The notes below the pieces were generated by a model that saw only the letters and a list, made by a program, of their open reading frames with translations, did no database searches and was not told the origin of the DNA. A DNA stretch of 64,000 nt, from positions 693,501 to 757,500 of the forward strand of contig NZ_CP031842.1 of the NCBI RefSeq assembly GCF_003441615.1, in the 5' to 3' direction. Source of the stretch: Dechloromonas sp. HYN0024 (GTDB lineage: Bacteria > Pseudomonadota > Gammaproteobacteria > Burkholderiales > Rhodocyclaceae). A program made the position numbers and the translations under genes. Of this stretch, positions 48,678-57,553 are shown one piece after another; positions within the stretch are counted from its first letter, which is position 1, and every line of letters starts with the position of its first letter.

Positions 48678-50018
48678 TCATTTCTGGAGTTGCGCGATTT
48701 GCTGACTGAGGTAGCTACTTGTGGTTTGCATGGAGCTAACCATCTTATCGAGCGCAGTAAATTGAGCACGGTAGCGCTTCTCGACTAGGCTGACCCGGAG
48801 TTCCAATGTGGCTTGACTGTCCTTGTAACGATTAACAGTAGTGTTGAGGCCACTGATTCGACTTGCCACAGAACCGTTGCCGCTCAGTATGCCTGTTACA
48901 GCCGTACTGTACGATTTGCCATAGGCATTGAGCACTTTGACGACATCGGTGGCTGATGTGCTGATTGCTGAACTTAGTGCGGCGGTATCGAGTTTTAGCT
49001 GCCCATTTGTCTGGACGCTGACACCGATTGATGAAAGCGTTTTCAAGGTGGCGCTGCTAAGTTCTGTTGGAACAGTTGTTCTGGCGCTACTCAATGTGTT
49101 GAGCAGCGAACGAACCGTGCCGTCGCCATTGAAGGCTTGGGCGGTTTTGGTGGTCGCGTCGTAGTTGCTATTGTTTTTTATCAGCGTAACCACCGCGTTA
49201 TAGCTATCGACAAAAGCTTGCGCCGCTGCAGTAATCTTGGTGCTGTCATTTTGCACGGTGACGTTTGATGTCCCCAATTTCACAGCGGTCAAGGTCAGTC
49301 CAGCGATGTTCGAAAATGTATTGGTGCTTGAGTTGACTTCGATGCCGTCGATCTTGATCTTGGCATCCAGTGCGTCCTTGCGATTCAATCCAGCCGTAGC
49401 TGTGTCGAAGGTTGCCAGTGAGTCTTGTCCGCCCGATGCGGCGACTGTTGAAACTAACGAAAACCCTTTGCCAGTGCCCGATTTGTCACCGGTCATTACC
49501 ATACGTTGCTTGCCCGTTGAGTCGGTAATTACGGTTGCTGTCACGCCGATTTGTGCGGCGTTGATGGCGGAGCTCACGTTTTCTAACGTCGCCCCTGCGC
49601 TGATGCTAATGGGCGTGGCAGCGACTCCGGCAACTGTGAAAGTTAGATCGCCAGCGGAGAAAGTAGTGCCTGCAGCATATGCGGTGGTGAAACTTTTTTG
49701 CGCGCTAGCCAGTTGCGTCACTTCCAGGCCATAACTGCCGACTGCTGCGGTGTATGAAGCACTTGCGCCGAGTACTGTCGTGTCGCTGGATGTTGCGCTC
49801 AGGGCCGAAAGTTTGGAAGGAAACTGTAGCGTATCGGCGGCTGAATTTAGCGCATCAAGCTTGGACTTTAGTGTGCCGTAGAGGGAAATTTGGCTATTGG
49901 CCGCCGAGATCTTGGTATCCAGCGCCCTGATGGGGGCTCGCTCGGCAGTAATGATGCTGCTTAGCATGGATTGCAAATCCACGCCGGTGCCTATGCCCAG
50001 AGAGCTGGTGGTTGCCAT
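48678..50018 (-). CDS. fliD: Filament cap protein FliD (HAP2)
   Basis: Caps the filament and folds incoming flagellin. It is 446 residues: N-terminal motif GIGTGVDLQSMLSSIITAE, a Thr/Ser/Ala-rich exposed centre, and C-terminal helix QFTALDKMVSSMQTTSSYLS. The centre (about 90-330) has fewer G/C-ending codons and more A/T than the neighbouring export genes, as common for surface-exposed flagellar proteins. GAGGGA lies upstream of the ATG. Confidence 0.95.
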   Translation of the reverse strand: MATTSSLGIGTGVDLQSMLSSIITAERAPIRALDTKISAANSQISLYGTLKSKLDALNSAADTLQFPSKLSALSATSSDTTVLGASASYTAAVGSYGLEVTQLASAQKSFTTAYAAGTTFSAGDLTFTVAGVAATPISISAGATLENVSSAINAAQIGVTATVITDSTGKQRMVMTGDKSGTGKGFSLVSTVAASGGQDSLATFDTATAGLNRKDALDAKIKIDGIEVNSSTNTFSNIAGLTLTAVKLGTSNVTVQNDSTKITAAAQAFVDSYNAVVTLIKNNSNYDATTKTAQAFNGDGTVRSLLNTLSSARTTVPTELSSATLKTLSSIGVSVQTNGQLKLDTAALSSAISTSATDVVKVLNAYGKSYSTAVTGILSGNGSVASRISGLNTTVNRYKDSQATLELRVSLVEKRYRAQFTALDKMVSSMQTTSSYLSQQIAQLQK

Positions 50019-50036: not shown

Positions 50037-50408
50037 TTATGCCTTGTCTCTGATCAAAAGACCTTGCAGTTTGTCCAGGGCACGGGCAATTGCCACCGCT
50101 TCTTCTGATGGGAACTGTCGGATGACCTGCTTGGTCTGGATATCCGTGATCTTAACAATTTGGGAGCCCGAAGTGTCGTCAATCGAAAAGCTGAGTTCCG
50201 ATTGTCTCGAGGAAACGAACTCGGCAATTTTTTCTACGGCTTGTTTGACTTCAAGCTTGTCTGGCGTTTTCTCGGCCGCCTGAGGGGGCTTGACCGGTTC
50301 GGCGGCCTTGCTACTTACAACGGCTGGCTGGCGTGTCGCGATAGCGGCGGCCTCTGGCAGGGGCGCGCGTGGTGGTGAATTTACGTTACTAATCAGATCG
50401 GTGGTCAT
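50037..50408 (-). CDS. flaG: Flagellar protein FlaG
   Basis: Small protein linked to filament length in polar flagellates. It is 123 residues: a Pro/Ala-rich N-terminus and the FlaG domain at the end (FSIDDTSGSQIVKITDIQTKQVIRQFPSEEAVAIARAL). AGGAG precedes the ATG. It lies between fliC and fliD, as in Pseudomonas and Vibrio. A terminator-like hairpin separates it from fliC. Confidence 0.93.
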   Translation of the reverse strand: MTTDLISNVNSPPRAPLPEAAAIATRQPAVVSSKAAEPVKPPQAAEKTPDKLEVKQAVEKIAEFVSSRQSELSFSIDDTSGSQIVKITDIQTKQVIRQFPSEEAVAIARALDKLQGLLIRDKA

Positions 50409-50485: not shown

Positions 50486-51169
50486 TTAACGCAACAGAGT
50501 CAGCACGTTTTGCGGGATTGCGTTGGCTTGGGCAACCATCGCCGTACCTGCTTGCTGGAGAATCTGGAAGCGCGAGAGATTCGAGGTTTCCTGAGCAAAG
50601 TCGGCATCCATGATACGGCTTTGGGCGGCCCGTTGGTTTTCGTAGGAGGCTTGCTTCGCCTGGATGGCAAACTGCGAGTTGTTGATGATCGAACCTTGCT
50701 TGATCCGCTCTGTAGTGAGTGCCGCGAGGTCACTCGATGCGGCTTCGGCACCGGTTACAGCGATAGTCGCACCTGCAGTACCACCGAATTCAGCGATAGC
50801 GTTGGAGGCATCTGTTTGAACCGTTGCGGCTTGAGCTGAGAGCAGGGCACGTTCGGCCGAGGTTGCCGACGCTACACCAACGGCGTTCAATTCAATGATA
50901 CGCGCCATGATGTCGCCGACTACTGCAAGGGCGCCATCGGCAATCTGGGCGGAAGAGATGTCGTCACCCAGTTTGCGGATTTTGACATTCGTAATACGGG
51001 CGGCTGCATCGATCTTGACGCCAGAGGCGAGACCCGAGGCGTCGTCCTTGGCGGAGTTGACGCGCAGACCGGAGGAGAGACGTTCAAGGGCCGAAGCAAG
51101 GCCGAGAGAGTTCTTGGCCAGATTCTTTTGGGCGTTGAGCGAGTAGTTGTTGGTGTTGATTTGTGACAT
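50486..51169 (-). CDS. fliC: Flagellin, exceptionally short
   Basis: Filament subunit of only 227 residues; most bacterial flagellins exceed 270 and the minimal forms are about 250-280. The D0 and inner D1 helices are present (NNYSLNAQKNLAKNSLGLAS, ERLSSGLRVNSAKDDASGLA; C-terminal SRFQILQQAGTAMVAQANAI, QNVLTLLR). There is no D2/D3, and the D1 hairpin region is reduced to a Gly/Ala/Thr/Ser stretch (about 128-150). Good ribosome site AGGAG; a strong sigma-28 promoter is upstream. It is the only flagellin gene here and is followed by flaG and fliD. The adjacent glycosyltransferase suggests that it is glycosylated, possibly at Ser/Thr residues in 100-155. Confidence 0.93.
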   Translation of the reverse strand: MSQINTNNYSLNAQKNLAKNSLGLASALERLSSGLRVNSAKDDASGLASGVKIDAAARITNVKIRKLGDDISSAQIADGALAVVGDIMARIIELNAVGVASATSAERALLSAQAATVQTDASNAIAEFGGTAGATIAVTGAEAASSDLAALTTERIKQGSIINNSQFAIQAKQASYENQRAAQSRIMDADFAQETSNLSRFQILQQAGTAMVAQANAIPQNVLTLLR

Positions 51170-51301: not shown

Positions 51302-54300
51302 TCACGCATTTTTTTCTTGCGGCGCGGGGAGGTGGGCGTGCAGCCAGTCTTCCACATGGTTTTCGAGCAGGTAATTGGCATGAACCCAGTCGCGCATGAC
51401 TTTGCCCTCCCGTTCGCGCGCCTCGGCATCGTGAATTCGTGCGCGCAGGGCATCGATCCATGCTTGAGACGTATTGACGACGCGGCAGGCCGGACTATTC
51501 CTGTACGGGTCAATGTCCGTGCAGACGACTGGAAGACCGAGGCTGCCGTATTCGAGCAGGCGCAAATTGCTTTTGCCCTGATTGAAGGGGATTTGAGCCA
51601 GGGGGGCGACTGCGATATCGAGATTGAGCAAGGCCAGAAACTTTGGATATTCGCTAAACGGAACAAGGTCGTGGTATTCAGCGAGGAGAGGCCGGATTTC
51701 ATCCGGGCACATGCCAAAAAATATCCAGTCTGCTTCATCCCGAGTCTGTTCGATGATTTCCTTCAACAGCATTAAATCACCTTGGTGTGTTGAACCTCCA
51801 GCCCATCCGACCCGCGGCTTTTTCCCTGTGCGTTTGAGACTGTCGAGCGGGCGCCAAATATCTTGTTCCAGCCGGTTGGGTACAACCCGTATATCGGGGA
51901 TCAGATGGCGATAGGTTTCCGCCAAAAACTCTGTGGAGACGACCAGTCGGTCACATCGTGCCAGGGCATATTTCAGGCGGGCGCGCGCATTCGGTGGAAT
52001 GTTCTCCCGGAAGGGATTGTTCTTGTCCATATCGCTGATAAGATCATCAAGGGCATAGACGACGAAAGGGCATGTTGGGGCCGAACGCCATTCGTCAAGC
52101 GATTCAAGCGCCATATTGTGAATGTAGTTTTGAACAATGACTGTGCTGGGCGCCAATCGGGCAATTTCAGCCTGCGTGTGATACCTCGGCTTAACCCCCA
52201 GCTTCTGGGGCCACACACATTCGGTTGCTAGTCCGGCCTTGCGCGCCGCCCTCAGGGGTGACCTGATCCGGAAGTCCCCTTGTGCGTTATAGATAGGATG
52301 CGCCAGTATGCGCGGGGTATCGGCTGGAACATATTGCCACTGTGGTCGATATTCAGTTTCCAGGGTAGGGGCAGCGTCGGCGAGCGACAGATTCGGATTC
52401 CAATAAAGGTCGACCATACCTACCTTTCCCCAGCGTTGGCGGAAGGACTTGTTGGCATCGATTTTGGCGATAGCAGACGTCAATCGGAGCATGGTGTCGT
52501 AGGCTGAGGTTTCTCCACCATAGACAATGCTTGCCCGTGGCTGACGAATCAGGCGCAGGTTGCGTTGGCGTAGCTTGAGACCAAGGTCGCAATCGGCGAG
52601 ATGATCGCCAAGGGCGGTTTCATCCATGCCCCCTGCGTCTAGATAGTCCTTTTTGCGGATCAGGAAACAAGTCGACGGCAGGGAACTGGCATCCTGTGCC
52701 AGTTTAAGGCTATCGAGGTAGCCGCTTTCACCGAGCTTGGCAATGCCACATATTGTTGACTCGTTGGTGTTTTTTAAACCAAGGGTATTGTCTGTAGCGA
52801 GAACTTTGGCATCGCCAGGGTTGTGATGCTGCGGGAAAGCCGCAGCGATATCGGCTTGGATGAAGGTATGAACGAGTTCTTCAAGCCAGTTGTCCTGCAC
52901 GATGACGATCTCCTCTCGGACGAGGAGAACCAGATCGTTTTCGGCTGCGGCGATTGCTGCGTTGCAGCGAGCGGCATGGTTGGGGGTGGATTTGTTATTC
53001 ACCCTCCGTACTTTGCAGAATTTTGATTGTGCCTCGGCATCTTTGATCCATTGATCAAGATCAGGATCATTTTCCCCTTCGTCGGTCACGATCTGTATCG
53101 TGAATTCCGGATAGCGCGTGATCTTCTCGATGCTTTCGAAGCAGCGTGATAGTAGTTCGAGTTGTCCTTGCGAGAGGATGGCTATCGTCACCGGAGGTGG
53201 CTGATCGAATAGTCCTCGGGTGTTCCAGCTTTGTGCCGTGGCGTGTACCAGTTCGGCTGCTAAACCTTGATTCTTCTGGTGCTCAATCAAGGTCAGTAGG
53301 CAGGCGTTGGTGTCGCTGGGGAAACTGTCTGGATACGTGATGAGCTGGTCGGGAATGTGTTTGATGCTGGGCCAGCCGAATGCGGCAGCAAGGCGTAACA
53401 GCTGGCTAAACCAAGGGCTGCCACCATATACCCCGCATCCGCCACTCTTGATCCAGGCTTCCTTGCGAACACAAAGCGGCCCGGCCAGGTCCATTCCTTG
53501 TAAATGGGCTGGGTTGGTTCCTGGCTTGAAGCGCGGTGTGTGTCGGTTGCCTGCGCCATCAATGCAATCGTCGTCGACAAAAAGCGCGGCTGCTTCGGGA
53601 AAGAGGGAGGCCTCTTTGGCCAGTCGCCACAGGTACAAGATGTCCAGCTTGGCCCCGGCCGGAATTTCGATAATCCAATTGCATGGACTGACCTCGGCAA
53701 GGCGATCGACAGCATGCTTGAAATCATCGGAGCAGGGGATTGTCTGCCAGCCGACATTGGGCACATCTTCTAGTCCCGCAGGGCCGGGCAAGGTACTTAC
53801 CACGTCAAGGTGCCAGTTTTCATTGACTTGGAGGCCGAGGCTGTCAAGCGTATCGGCGAGTTTGCTCTCTAAACCAGCTGGCAGGCGGATAAAGAAATGA
53901 AATTTTTGCTCGTTGAGCGGACTAATGTGATCCGGAATACTACTTTCAAGAAACGTTATGTCGGTCTCAATGAGTTCGCGCTGCGAAAGCCAGTATTGAT
54001 ATTTCTGGCTGATAAGGCTTGTGGTACTTGAGGCTCCCCAGTCTGTGCTGATTTGATTGGGCCTGGCGATTTGTGAAAAGGCGCCGAGAGACTCGGCCGC
54101 AAGTGCAGCGGAGTTTGCGGGGGGGACATGCAAGAAATTTTCAGGCGTACTTTCAATCGGCTGGAGCAAATTGGAAGTACGGATGGCATGCTCAGGCGGA
54201 TTCTGCTGAAAGGCAGCTGTGCTCAGGATTGTCGTACTGATTCGTTTCAGGGTGTCTTTATTCCAGAGGTAAAGGAGCGCTTCAGTGTCTTCGCAACTGG

Positions 54301-55012
54301 AGGCGTGGCTCAATGAGACGGTGCTGGGTCGGCTGCACTCGGGAGGGTCAAGGTGTGTTGCATATTTGCTAACAAAGCGCTGGGCGTACTCGCGCTGCTT
54401 CCTGTCAAAGTTGCCACCGGACTCATGGATAAGGGGAATGTCGCAGCAAATGCCCAGCTTGAAACCTGCCAAATAGGCCGAAAAGCTGAAATCTAGGTCA
54501 TAAAGGTGAAAGCCATCAAAGATGGAGGCATCGAACCTAATATCGGCGGCTACTTGACGCGTAGCGACCATAAGTAGTCCATCAATAACTTTTATGCCAG
54601 GGATGGTGGGCCATTCTTGGGCACCAAATACGTTGAGGTCCAATGATTTTGATTTAGGCAACGCGTGCGCAATAACGCCATGAAGATATCGATTGGCGAC
54701 ATCTATCCATTGACCACTTATGATTTTGCTTGCGCCGGCAAAACCCAATAGATCAAATCTGGATAGGCGATCGATGATCTTTTCCGCAAAATTTTCATCC
54801 AGTATGAGTATGTCATCGTGGGAGAATATCAATATATCTCCGCTAGATTGCGTTATTCCACGGTTGTATCCTTCGGCCAGCGAACGCGCGTCATGAATAC
54901 CGATGATTTCGTAGGGCACATCGGCAAATAGGCATTTGTAGTTCTCGCAAATGCGAGCATATTTGATGGCTTCTATGCTGCAGATAATGACGGATATTTT
55001 CGGATTTTTCAT
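51302..55012 (-). CDS. Large multi-module glycosyltransferase, probable flagellin or surface glycan enzyme
   Basis: It is 1236 residues with no membrane helix. Four modules can be seen. Module 1 (about 1-220) is GT2-like: KISVIICSI, acidic motif FSHDD at 63-67, and FDGFHLYDLDFSFSAYLAG at 165-183. Module 2 (about 370-580) is a weaker GT2-like unit with FVDDD at 478-482 and AGPLCVRKEAWIKSGG. Module 3 (about 605-860) is GT2-like (VTIAILSQGQ, CFLIRKKDYLDAGGMDE, DCDLGLKLR) but has REE where an acidic metal-binding motif is expected. Module 4 (about 900-1225) is GT4/GT1-like (RVGWAGGSTHQGD, LRLLEYGSLGLPVV). It lies 132 bp upstream of fliC on the same strand and is more AT-rich than the flagellar genes. 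No good ribosome site is visible. Substrate is unknown. Confidence 0.88.
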   Translation of the reverse strand: MKNPKISVIICSIEAIKYARICENYKCLFADVPYEIIGIHDARSLAEGYNRGITQSSGDILIFSHDDILILDENFAEKIIDRLSRFDLLGFAGASKIISGQWIDVANRYLHGVIAHALPKSKSLDLNVFGAQEWPTIPGIKVIDGLLMVATRQVAADIRFDASIFDGFHLYDLDFSFSAYLAGFKLGICCDIPLIHESGGNFDRKQREYAQRFVSKYATHLDPPECSRPSTVSLSHASSCEDTEALLYLWNKDTLKRISTTILSTAAFQQNPPEHAIRTSNLLQPIESTPENFLHVPPANSAALAAESLGAFSQIARPNQISTDWGASSTTSLISQKYQYWLSQRELIETDITFLESSIPDHISPLNEQKFHFFIRLPAGLESKLADTLDSLGLQVNENWHLDVVSTLPGPAGLEDVPNVGWQTIPCSDDFKHAVDRLAEVSPCNWIIEIPAGAKLDILYLWRLAKEASLFPEAAALFVDDDCIDGAGNRHTPRFKPGTNPAHLQGMDLAGPLCVRKEAWIKSGGCGVYGGSPWFSQLLRLAAAFGWPSIKHIPDQLITYPDSFPSDTNACLLTLIEHQKNQGLAAELVHATAQSWNTRGLFDQPPPVTIAILSQGQLELLSRCFESIEKITRYPEFTIQIVTDEGENDPDLDQWIKDAEAQSKFCKVRRVNNKSTPNHAARCNAAIAAAENDLVLLVREEIVIVQDNWLEELVHTFIQADIAAAFPQHHNPGDAKVLATDNTLGLKNTNESTICGIAKLGESGYLDSLKLAQDASSLPSTCFLIRKKDYLDAGGMDETALGDHLADCDLGLKLRQRNLRLIRQPRASIVYGGETSAYDTMLRLTSAIAKIDANKSFRQRWGKVGMVDLYWNPNLSLADAAPTLETEYRPQWQYVPADTPRILAHPIYNAQGDFRIRSPLRAARKAGLATECVWPQKLGVKPRYHTQAEIARLAPSTVIVQNYIHNMALESLDEWRSAPTCPFVVYALDDLISDMDKNNPFRENIPPNARARLKYALARCDRLVVSTEFLAETYRHLIPDIRVVPNRLEQDIWRPLDSLKRTGKKPRVGWAGGSTHQGDLMLLKEIIEQTRDEADWIFFGMCPDEIRPLLAEYHDLVPFSEYPKFLALLNLDIAVAPLAQIPFNQGKSNLRLLEYGSLGLPVVCTDIDPYRNSPACRVVNTSQAWIDALRARIHDAEAREREGKVMRDWVHANYLLENHVEDWLHAHLPAPQEKNA

Positions 55013-55063
55013 TTTGCGCGATGTTGTGTTCGGGGCTTTTCTCTGAATCGCTTCGGCTGACTA

Positions 55064-55729
55064 TCAGGCGGGTTCTGCCCGAACGACATACTGAAGCGCC
55101 ATAGCATCGTTGATCGCGATGCTGGCATCGGCGCCGCATAAGCGAGCTATTTCACCAATCATCGGAAGTACTCTGTCCCGGCCTGGTTCGTCATAAACTC
55201 TGGGTAATCCCGCGACAATTTTAAAGCCAGTGGAGGCGAATAAATCGATGATGGTTTTTTTGGTAAACCACCGTAAGTGGGTCTTGTCCATTAAGCCACT
55301 ATCTTCGTAACGGAATTCGCCGGTCGACAGCTTTGCGATGATCGACCAATGCTGTGCATTGGGAATGCAAGCGACAACGCTGCCATTTGTTGGCAAAACC
55401 TCTCGAATTGCCCCCAGTATCTTCCACGGATCTTTCAGATGCTCTAGCGTGTCGCCAAAAACCCAGCAGTCCCGATCGGCTTGTTCTTGGTAGAACTTGC
55501 TGTCAGCAGTTTCGATATCCATTGCCACCGCATGGTCGCAATGCTTGCTAGCGACCTCTGCGTAGCTTGGGTCAATATCAATGCCGAACCAGTCACAATT
55601 AGCATTATTCTTGAACGCCTGCGCCAGAGCCCCTGAACTGCATCCGATCTCGATAACCTTCCGGGAATGGCTGGGGATCAGTCGTAAAAGGTCAGGGTTG
55701 TGTGCATTGTGTATAGGGGTCTGGTGCAT
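55064..55729 (-). CDS. Class I SAM-dependent methyltransferase
   Basis: It is 221 residues. SAM-binding motif I is VIEIGCSSGALAQAF (about residues 25-39), followed by FGIDIDPSYAEVA (motif II) and CWVFGDTLEHLKDPWKIL. This is the Methyltransf_23-like type common in glycan and O-antigen clusters. GGAG lies 7 bases before the ATG. It lies 51 bp upstream of the large glycosyltransferase on the same strand, so it probably methylates a sugar of the same glycan. Small-molecule methylation cannot be excluded. Confidence 0.87.
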   Translation of the reverse strand: MHQTPIHNAHNPDLLRLIPSHSRKVIEIGCSSGALAQAFKNNANCDWFGIDIDPSYAEVASKHCDHAVAMDIETADSKFYQEQADRDCWVFGDTLEHLKDPWKILGAIREVLPTNGSVVACIPNAQHWSIIAKLSTGEFRYEDSGLMDKTHLRWFTKKTIIDLFASTGFKIVAGLPRVYDEPGRDRVLPMIGEIARLCGADASIAINDAMALQYVVRAEPA

Positions 55730-55780: not shown

Positions 55781-57553
55781 CTATTCGCTGACCACCCTGT
55801 TCTTGCCCGTCTGCTTGGCCTTGTACATGCCGTCATCGGCCCGCTTGATCACCGTTGCCTGGGTGTCCTCGGCAGTCATTTGGGTGACCCCTGCGCTAAA
55901 GGTAATCAACACCTTGTCGTTGGCGTGCAGGAAAAACTTCTTGGTCAGTTCGCGCTGCAGGCGGGTGAGGGCGCTGACGGCATCGTCGAGCGGGGTGTCG
56001 GGGAGCAGGATGATGAACTCCTCGCCGCCATAACGGGCGACTGTGTCCTGCGGGCGGAGGGTTTCCCGGCAGATGGTGGCGAGGTGAATGAGGGCCTGGT
56101 CGCCGGTATCGTGACCCATCGAGTCGTTGAGCTTCTTGAAGTTGTCGATGTCGATCAATGCGACGCACAGCGAGGTGTCGTGGCGTGTTGCCCGGGATGC
56201 TTCCTTGGCAAAAATTTCTTCAAGGCCGCGGCGGTTGAGAACGCCGGTCAACTGGTCGTGGCGGACCAGGTCGCTGGTGGTCTCGAGTTCGCGCTCAAGC
56301 TCGGTGATGCGGGCTTCGGATTCCTGAACCTTTTTCTGGGTCGTGCGCAGTTCGTCGCGGGAGCGCTGGGCGCTGATCTGAATAGTCTTGGTTTCACGCA
56401 TGACTTCGCCGAGGACGGTTTCCAGTTCGGAGATGTCATTGGCCGAACTAATCTTTTCGGCGCAGCTTTCAATCTTGTCGTGATAGTCGGAAGTCGCATC
56501 GGCAAAGTCGGCCAGCTGGTCGACGAAGCCGGCCAGCATGTGTTTGATGGCTTCGCGGGCTTCCGACAGGCTGGCTTTGAGCTGACTTTGTTTGTAGAGG
56601 ACTTCCTTGAGGCGCCGTTCGGCATCGTCGAGGGCGCGCTGTGACAAGGGTTTGTCGATGATTTCGCGGACCACGTCGATCTGACCGTGCAGCCAATGGT
56701 CGTCCAGCACGAGGTCGGTGATGTTGCCGACCAGCAGGCGAAGCAGGCCAAGCAGGCTGTGGCGGAGTTCTGACTGGTCTTCGGCCAGCAGTTCGAGCTT
56801 GAAGGCAAAGCGCTTCAGTCGGGTGAGAAATTCCTGCAACTGGGCCGGGCTTCCTGCTGTGCGGATATCCTGAGCCAGTACCTTGGCGTCGGCCGACAAT
56901 TGAGGGCTTTCAACCAGTTGGGTGGCCATCGCTGTTTCAAGCGTAAAGGCAAACAGCTCACGTAATTCGGGTAACAGATCGGTGCTGGCAGCGGTAGTGG
57001 CAGCCGAAGATGAGGCTGGGCTGGCAGTCGGTTGAGGTGCAGCGATGTCGACCGGTACGGTGGCATCTGGTTCCTTGCCCTGGCCCCAGGAGCGCAGGAG
57101 ATTCTGCATCCGGTTGAAGAGGGTTTCCGGGTTGGCGCCGCTGCTTGCCAGGACGTGCTCAAGGGACTCCCGCTTGCGGGCCGATGTCAGGCCCGGGTGT
57201 TTTGCATCCCACAGTCGGAGCAGGTCACTGATAACCTCGGACCAGGCCAGTTTTTGTGCTTCGGCGAGACCAGCAACGAAGTCGCCCAGATGTTTTTTGT
57301 AATCGTCCCAGTTGCCTGCCTTGACCGCGTCTTCCAGTTGCCTGGCCAGGCGTAGCTGGTCTGGCGAGGTCTTGGGCAAGGCTGCGGCCAGTGAGCGCAA
57401 CTCCGATTCGGGGAAGGTGTTTGCAACGTGCTTGGTCCCGGCGATCTCGTGGTAGAGGGTCTGGTAATTCTCGGGCGATGGCGGAATACGGCGAACCGCC
57501 AGTAGGCGCAACGTCTCGCGGGCGATCTCGAAGGGATTGGTCAGCTTGTTCAT
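55781..57553 (-). CDS. Diguanylate cyclase (GGDEF) with long N-terminal helical region
   Basis: Makes cyclic di-GMP. It is 590 residues and soluble. The N-terminal part (1-380) is of no family that I can name; it starts NPFEIARETLRLLAVRRIPP and contains a Pro/Ala/Ser linker (about 165-195). A coiled coil (about 370-415) then leads to the GGDEF domain (about 420-585), with active-site GGEEF (509-513) and inhibitory I-site RxxD (RPQD, 500-503). The enzyme should therefore be active and product-inhibited. It is a candidate source of the signal sensed by YcgR (45468-46244). It ends the flagellar block. Confidence 0.93.
   Translation of the reverse strand: MNKLTNPFEIARETLRLLAVRRIPPSPENYQTLYHEIAGTKHVANTFPESELRSLAAALPKTSPDQLRLARQLEDAVKAGNWDDYKKHLGDFVAGLAEAQKLAWSEVISDLLRLWDAKHPGLTSARKRESLEHVLASSGANPETLFNRMQNLLRSWGQGKEPDATVPVDIAAPQPTASPASSSAATTAASTDLLPELRELFAFTLETAMATQLVESPQLSADAKVLAQDIRTAGSPAQLQEFLTRLKRFAFKLELLAEDQSELRHSLLGLLRLLVGNITDLVLDDHWLHGQIDVVREIIDKPLSQRALDDAERRLKEVLYKQSQLKASLSEAREAIKHMLAGFVDQLADFADATSDYHDKIESCAEKISSANDISELETVLGEVMRETKTIQISAQRSRDELRTTQKKVQESEARITELERELETTSDLVRHDQLTGVLNRRGLEEIFAKEASRATRHDTSLCVALIDIDNFKKLNDSMGHDTGDQALIHLATICRETLRPQDTVARYGGEEFIILLPDTPLDDAVSALTRLQRELTKKFFLHANDKVLITFSAGVTQMTAEDTQATVIKRADDGMYKAKQTGKNRVVSE

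Follow-up and report, generated by a model that had tools for sequence, protein, structure and literature searches.

Among described flagellin glycosyltransferases (GTs), PA1091 (FgtA) of Pseudomonas aeruginosa is adjacent to fliC, Burkholderia cenocepacia has the flagellin GT BCAL0111, and FlmG belongs to a GT41 type with tetratricopeptide repeats (TPR). The protein considered here, a 1236-amino acid GT encoded in Dechloromonas sp. HYN0024, is likewise adjacent to fliC. It lies in a stretch of 64,000 nucleotides (positions 693,501–757,500 of contig NZ_CP031842.1), which we call the window and whose numbering is used throughout; all window features given below are on the reverse strand. We think it likely that this protein is a flagellin-directed, multi-module GT within a flagellin glycosylation island, and that its N-terminal module (the head), probably along with the methyltransferase encoded next to it, is a swapped cassette.

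In P. syringae, fgt1 and fgt2 are located upstream of fliC and serve the rhamnosyl part of the glycan, a methylated viosamine is distal, and VioT is 1,173 amino acids in length (excerpts of PMC3927599). The Pseudomonas systems (Fgt1/Fgt2, VioT, and FgtA) resemble the window locus in that a methyltransferase acts, or in our case may act, on a distal sugar or donor group (excerpts of PMC3927599 and PMC11833859). In addition, three loci of Stutzerimonas and Pseudomonas (L031, L033, and L036) have relatives of the Dechloromonas GT core ahead of fliC. FgtA differs in fusing a GT to a phosphotransferase (excerpts of PMC11833859), whereas no phosphotransferase family is among the Pfam matches of the window GT at E ≤ 1. 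The Pseudomonas GTs differ further in that the excerpts of their descriptions contain no exchange of heads within a gene, as found in the present family.

The flagellin glycosylation islands of Enterobacteriaceae, as excerpts of PMC4875605 describe them, are variable inserts at the flagellin locus with low mean guanine-cytosine (GC) content, containing GTs, methyltransferases, and in some cases GT41. The window shares with such islands a GT beside the flagellin gene and variable content at a fixed site, and has no sugar-biosynthesis genes between the GGDEF gene that bounds the site and fliC. It differs in that one GT gene is itself divided into a resident core and a variable part. The GT41 TPR flagellin systems, to which FlmG (PMC7591256) belongs, are resembled by two genomes of the same genus that have a TPR protein at the same site, which is GT41 by Pfam in L105; the window genome differs in having no PF13844 match, with the control positive in two of 14 named genomes. 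Two-domain GT2 polymerases (chondroitin synthase K4CP and heparosan synthase) have tandem GT-A domains as well, to which the window GT adds a GT-B module and an exchanged head; here the likeness is one of fold. A search of the open-license literature, with most subscription journals outside its scope, did not turn up any account of heads being exchanged inside a flagellin GT.

Exchange of the GT head

The window GT consists of a head (amino acids 1–265; 54218–55012), a linker without a Pfam match that is probably flexible (amino acids 266–337; 54002–54217), and a conserved core of three GT modules (amino acids 338–1236; 51305–54001) supported by family genome matches and a core model. Its mosaic structure is nearly certain. 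The core of the window GT and that of L008 are sisters (68% identity; Shimodaira-Hasegawa-like approximate likelihood ratio test, 99), while their heads are unrelated (best E 0.8). DNA similarity between the two begins at window position ~53993 (amino acid ~340) by blastn, and identity in 90-column bins is 28–48% ahead of this point and 52–83% past it. This places the junction at amino acids ~319–349 (53966–54058).

A second junction is seen between L008 and L001, which share a block of 10,069 bp with 94.0% DNA identity. It begins where the fetched stretch begins and runs to L008 nucleotide 10069, inside the GT gene. The block ends at L008 amino acid ~393, equivalent to window amino acid ~352, past which the 90-column bins fall to 39–64% for the next ~1.5 kb and are 59–79% in the GT4 part. 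At the protein level the heads of L008 and L001 are 93% identical and their cores 58%; their FliC and FliD proteins are 89% and 83% identical, respectively. Since L173 matches L001 collinearly across the gene (74%), it is L008 that looks recombinant from the alignments. Further cases have a similar form. L003 and L176 have cores ~66% identical to that of L125 and unrelated heads, with blastn similarity beginning only within module 2, and the Paracidovorax loci L025 and L026 have unrelated heads ahead of an aligned core part that is 83% identical. In G000, G338, and G368, all single-contig genomes from one genus, no two heads were similar at E<1e-5. In the Paracidovorax pair, module 2 is only 56% identical and modules 3 and 4 are 96% identical, which suggests that the exchange there passes the linker into module 2.

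We compared heads and cores among 26 loci, after loci with core identity below 42% or with fewer than 200 amino acids ahead of the core were dropped; L006 (core only) fell outside this set by length and L190 (41.9%) by identity. Unrelated heads were found in 3 of 14 pairs with core identity of at least 60%, in 8 of 16 pairs at 55–60%, and in 43 of 61 at 50–55%, where the N-terminal parts of L174, L182, L127, and L004 may include false start extensions. On the 26-core tree, three head classes require seven changes (minimum 2; shuffled mean 9.8); these classes are loose, L124 and L125 being joined only via intermediates. Eleven finer, hand-grouped classes require 14 changes. As seven is above the minimum and below the shuffled mean, heads appear to be inherited for some time and then replaced.

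Nor do the heads come from a single family: that of the window is PF13712, those of L002 and L009 are PF00535, and those of L001, L003, and L008 form a class without Pfam matches. The arrangement found in the window, which the earlier note had not recognized as described, recurs in L174 of the same genus (genome G429), a protein of 1202 amino acids with a head of the window class (55% identity) and a core (53%) that ends 159 bp before fliC. The start of L174 was set at nucleotide 2654, the automatic start having added ~290 false residues. More distant heads of the PF13712 type (29–30%) precede the core in L139 and L140, and these three loci led us to reject a unique module order. L014 and L120 have an additional module in front. 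As a separate observation, the class without Pfam matches has a conserved PD(Y/F)xExSxGIRxxHxLCH stretch near its start and is guessed to be a GT-B enzyme. This stretch is also found at the start of a separate TPR protein of 866 amino acids in L174 (57–2657), which overlaps the GT start.

Base composition was examined for the proposal that these genes were transferred as an AT-rich unit. The bin 54001–55000 has the lowest GC content of the 64 one-kb bins of the window (0.489). Along the GT gene GC content is 0.430 for amino acids 1–100, 0.488 for 101–225, and 0.539 for 226–337, and it is 0.543 in the core. It is 0.512 in the methyltransferase gene, 0.597 in the GGDEF gene, and 0.566, 0.538, and 0.526 in fliC, flaG, and fliD, respectively. 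The methyltransferase gene and the first ~225 amino acids of the GT are AT-rich as proposed, but the core resembles fliC, flaG, and fliD, and import of the whole GT gene as AT-rich DNA was rejected on the GC content of its core. The low GC content of the head supports a foreign origin for this part, without marking the junction exactly.

Linkage of the core to flagellin

The core was found at E≤1e-20 in 117 of 395 family genomes, its own included. A tblastn search with the GT against GTDB genomes gave 42 loci, of which only L014 aligns from amino acid 3 and most others from amino acid ~300 or later. The full open reading frames (ORFs) at these loci reach 2936 amino acids and have varied sequence ahead of the core; in 14 of them scanned against Pfam, the front part contained methyltransferase, GT2, or GT4 domains in some and nothing recognizable in others. 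In all, we collected 82 core loci, 76 of them nonidentical. Near loci are the 28, window included, with core identity of ~42% or more.

The GT lies directly upstream of fliC in the window, with 132 bp between its stop and the fliC start, and FliC is encoded 116–846 bp downstream in 27 of the 28 near loci. To count linkage fairly, the window and the 13 loci retrieved by way of FliC have to be set aside, which leaves 14 of the 28. FliC follows within 526 bp in 13 of these, and the remaining contig ends 220 bp past the GT. Among all 42 tblastn loci, a FliC match is present within 1 kb downstream in 18 and within 5 kb in two more. FliC was sought with the window protein alone, so divergent flagellins may be missed. 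In loci of Methylophaga, Stutzerimonas, Marinobacter, and Pseudomonas, too, relatives of the core precede fliC, and in Thiomonas (L037) the core directly follows a Flagellin_N gene in an flg cluster. Near relatives are thus not placed away from flagellin genes, as they would be if this were an O-antigen or capsule enzyme; the distant relatives are mixed.

This conserved linkage makes it very likely that flagellin is the substrate. The enzyme may be self-contained, as had been proposed, but between the GGDEF gene and fliC the window contains only the methyltransferase and GT genes, and no nucleotide-sugar genes. L123, a relative, is unlike the window in having two epimerase-type genes there.

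The chromosomal site and free-standing relatives of the head

The site is bounded on its far side by a conserved gene for a GGDEF-domain protein (55781–57553; PF00990, 151 bits), homologs of which are 70–86% identical in genus loci with a full match. The distance from this gene to fliC is 4.6 kb in the window and 4.2–19.6 kb in 16 other genomes. As far as the core start, the window has 1.8 kb and 14 other core-bearing genus loci have 1.4–16.7 kb (L175 and L180, as duplicates of L003 and L002, were not counted). The shortest of these, L002, has a head alone ahead of the core.

The head was found at E≤1e-8 in 53 of the 395 family genomes. The 19 best non-self places are open frames of only 275–582 amino acids and so lie outside a core fusion. 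Two genomes without a core match (G201 and G062) have at the same site a free-standing head homolog (56–58% identity), along with a TPR protein encoded on the opposite strand and further glycan genes. FliC is present in the fetched stretch of all nine of the closest free-standing head loci inspected (50–58%), and an opposite-strand ORF of 789–851 amino acids separates the head relative from FliC; Pfam assigns that of L105 to GT41, and those of L107 and L110 are homologous to it. In view of these loci, the window head appears to be related to an accessory GT belonging to a rival system linked to flagellin. With the core kept beside fliC, heads exchanged, and free-standing kin of the head at the same site, the methyltransferase and head resemble a minimal cassette that was swapped onto an ordinary core of a flagellin GT.

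We also observed that an opposite-strand protein of ~800 amino acids (GT41 by Pfam in L105) lies between accessory GTs and fliC in L105–L112 and L122. Five of these loci, when checked, had a second related protein of 846–1058 amino acids, which in L105 starts with a GT2 domain.

Module architecture and the module 3 motif

The four-module architecture suggested in the earlier note was borne out, as a PF13712 GT-A module followed by two further GT-A modules and a GT-B module of the GT4 type. The head matches PF13712 over the entire profile (positions 1–210 of 210) with 95.3 bits against a cut-off of 27, and has an SHDD motif. Its model was built from two sequences and is poor (mean predicted local distance difference test, pLDDT, 54.5), and no fold claims were drawn from it; pLDDT values below 50 across amino acids 219–337 are weak evidence for a flexible linker. 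The core was predicted with a pLDDT of 90.4 and a predicted TM score of 0.87, and aligns by Foldseek to two-domain GT-A synthases. A phmmer search with the GT against PDB sequences gave a best match of only E 0.035. In 151 phage records tblastn gave partial matches only, with no single place covering 80%. The GT is presumably cytoplasmic.

Module 2 (amino acids 368–600; 53213–53911) has D480-D481-D482, with D480 present in 68 of 68 loci. It has no profile match above the gathering score in the window, and one of four relatives' modules (L016) passes PF00535 with 24.6 bits; the VIA rows bear little on this module. Module 3 extends over amino acids 606–880 (52373–53197). Module 4 (amino acids ~897–1232; 51317–52324) has two Rossmann-like domains that match solved GT4 enzymes and is usually the most conserved module.

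Module 3 has R699-E700-E701 (52910–52918), which had been taken as loss of the acidic metal motif. We take position 701 to be that of the metal-binding Asp and D809 to be the base, as in GT2 enzymes; the window has Glu and not Asp at 701. Motifs were counted in 68 of the 76 nonidentical loci, short, fragmentary, or weak loci being excluded. In the 28 near loci the motif is REE in ten, RED and KEE in four each, SED and DEE in two each, and one of six single forms in the rest. Position 701 is acidic in 26 of the 28 (E in 16, D in 10) and position 700 in all 28, the window counted. Among the 40 loci further away, the most frequent form is NND, with 16, and Asp is at 701 in 34. As D809 and D480 are also kept in all 68, loss is an overstatement, and REE is by its distribution a clade variant, usually having Glu or Asp at the metal position.

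These counts bear on the possibility that module 3 is a noncatalytic scaffold in the near-relative clade, with a glycan shorter than the module count implies. NND has mostly been swapped for xE[E/D] in near relatives, and among the three modules identity is lowest in module 3 both between L008 and L001 (42%) and between the window and L008 (61%), as might be expected of a scaffold. The acidic residues at 700 and 701 and the invariant D809 speak against it, as does the finding that conservation of module 3 equals or exceeds that of module 2 in 17 of 25 hand-chosen pairs. We therefore regard a scaffold as doubtful.

The methyltransferase

The methyltransferase (METHYLTRANSFERASE; 221 amino acids; 55064–55729) is of the class I S-adenosylmethionine type, matching PF13489 with 54 bits and 3cc8_A with 147 bits over amino acids 7–219. 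Its nearest relative (58% identity, in G268) adjoins an ABC transporter with a Wzt C-terminal domain. A 55% relative in G028 adjoins a PF13712 GT, one of 51% in G349 adjoins a head-like fragment, and another of 51% in G313 lies in a stretch with GT41 and FliC. The neighbors in G028 and G349 indicate that pairing of methyltransferases of this kind with a PF13712-type GT exists beyond the window, if not in every relative.

The methyltransferase probably acts on the glycan or a sugar donor. It is unlikely that its target is instead flagellin itself or a nonsugar group of a donor. There is a precedent in the PAO1 island, whose methyltransferase PA1088 has been proposed to lead to a CDP-N,N-dimethylthreonine donor (excerpts of PMC11833859), but the window GT lacks a phosphotransferase domain by Pfam and the G028 relative adjoins a PF13712 GT.

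Proposed function and alternatives

We propose that the core, with two GT-A modules and one GT-B module, would lay protein-proximal sugars on Ser/Thr of flagellin before export. The likeliest initiator would be the GT4-type module, since this one is usually conserved best. A distal sugar would be attached by the first module, and the methyltransferase would methylate that sugar or its donor. This assignment of the head to a distal sugar and of the methyltransferase to its methylation is by analogy with the proximal/distal split of P. syringae, and we hold it to be evenly balanced. Transfer occurred at the level of the module: a resident core received the first GT module ahead of it, and the methyltransferase was probably placed there too. 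More generally, recombination would replace the head, either by itself or together with glycan genes upstream of it, and the inner end of the exchange is often just ahead of or at the start of the core, with core and fliC retained. There is about an even chance that GTs of this family are polymorphic proteins, in which a fliC-anchored core receives exchangeable heads at a recurrent junction, some from the free-standing GTs of rival systems.

If so, one event would be enough for a lineage to alter its flagellar glycan and still retain the step that recognizes flagellin, in a manner comparable to polymorphic toxin tips, and phages or grazers that recognize flagella would be a likely driver. One crossover in one gene would alter the outer sugar and leave the protein-attaching machinery intact, providing a genetic route to rapid diversification. 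Natural head swaps between close relatives are ready experiments for assigning sugars to modules and for gauging the tolerance of modular GTs to head exchange, which would be useful for glyco-engineering of laboratory strains.

Several observations weigh against the proposal of a flagellin-directed GT with a swapped head. The clearest recombinant, L008, is a metagenome assembly. Heads are related in 116 of the 325 pairs of the 26 loci, and head classes are partly inherited, being nonrandom on the core tree (as few changes in 4 of 200 shuffles). The AT-rich stretch stops near amino acid 225, ahead of the similarity junction at ~340. L174, with a head of the window class, has no methyltransferase match in 12.5 kb, its contig starting 2.65 kb before the GT. 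More distant free-standing heads (L113, L114, and L119; 29–37%) have no FliC in the fetched stretch. The methyltransferase may stem from lipopolysaccharide (LPS) biology, given the Wzt-type transporter next to its 58% relative. Lastly, in 22 of the 42 tblastn loci, mostly distant (26–42%) and seven with less than 3.5 kb of room, no FliC was found downstream with the window query, so the wider GT family may have other substrates. Among these 22, L025, L026, and L029 have flagellin matches upstream instead; the four neighbors scanned at L022 matched radical SAM and GT families, none of them flagellar.

The Wzt-type neighbor of the methyltransferase relative and the 22 loci without FliC downstream would also fit an enzyme that builds an LPS or exopolysaccharide unit and is near fliC by chance or through coregulation, as would the two-domain polymerases (heparosan and chondroitin synthases) that are the best Foldseek matches of the core. 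This is quite unlikely, as fliC follows the core in 13 of 14 near relatives not chosen through FliC and the association extends to Methylophaga, Stutzerimonas, Marinobacter, Pseudomonas, and, after a Flagellin_N gene, Thiomonas. Transfer of the whole gene in an ordinary flagellin glycosylation island, with a head that is merely fast evolving and never exchanged, is very unlikely: some clustering of head classes and the low-GC, gene-level transfer described for Enterobacteriaceae (excerpts of PMC4875605) would agree with it, but heads of different families, a sharp break in similarity, and the contrast between heads and cores in L008 and L001 do not.

Neighboring genes and other observations

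The ORFs of the 221-amino acid methyltransferase, the 1236-amino acid GT, and the flagellin were confirmed as real. The flagellin encoded by fliC (50486–51169; PF00669 and PF00700) is 227 amino acids in length and has the N- and C-terminal helical regions only. Very short flagellins, of 218–242 amino acids by first ATG, are also found in the nearest core-bearing relatives (FliC identity of 54% or more), such as L124 and L149. Those of other core-bearing relatives are ~264 amino acids, and those adjoining the GT41-type protein mostly ~270. Next to fliC are flaG (50037–50408; PF03646, 80.4 bits) and the gene for the filament cap, fliD (48678–50018; PF07195 and PF02465). Elsewhere in the same genome, one long frame (C1:2124839–2126455; L044) has a GT4-like stretch with 24% identity to module 4 and a methyltransferase stretch with 38% identity to that of the window.

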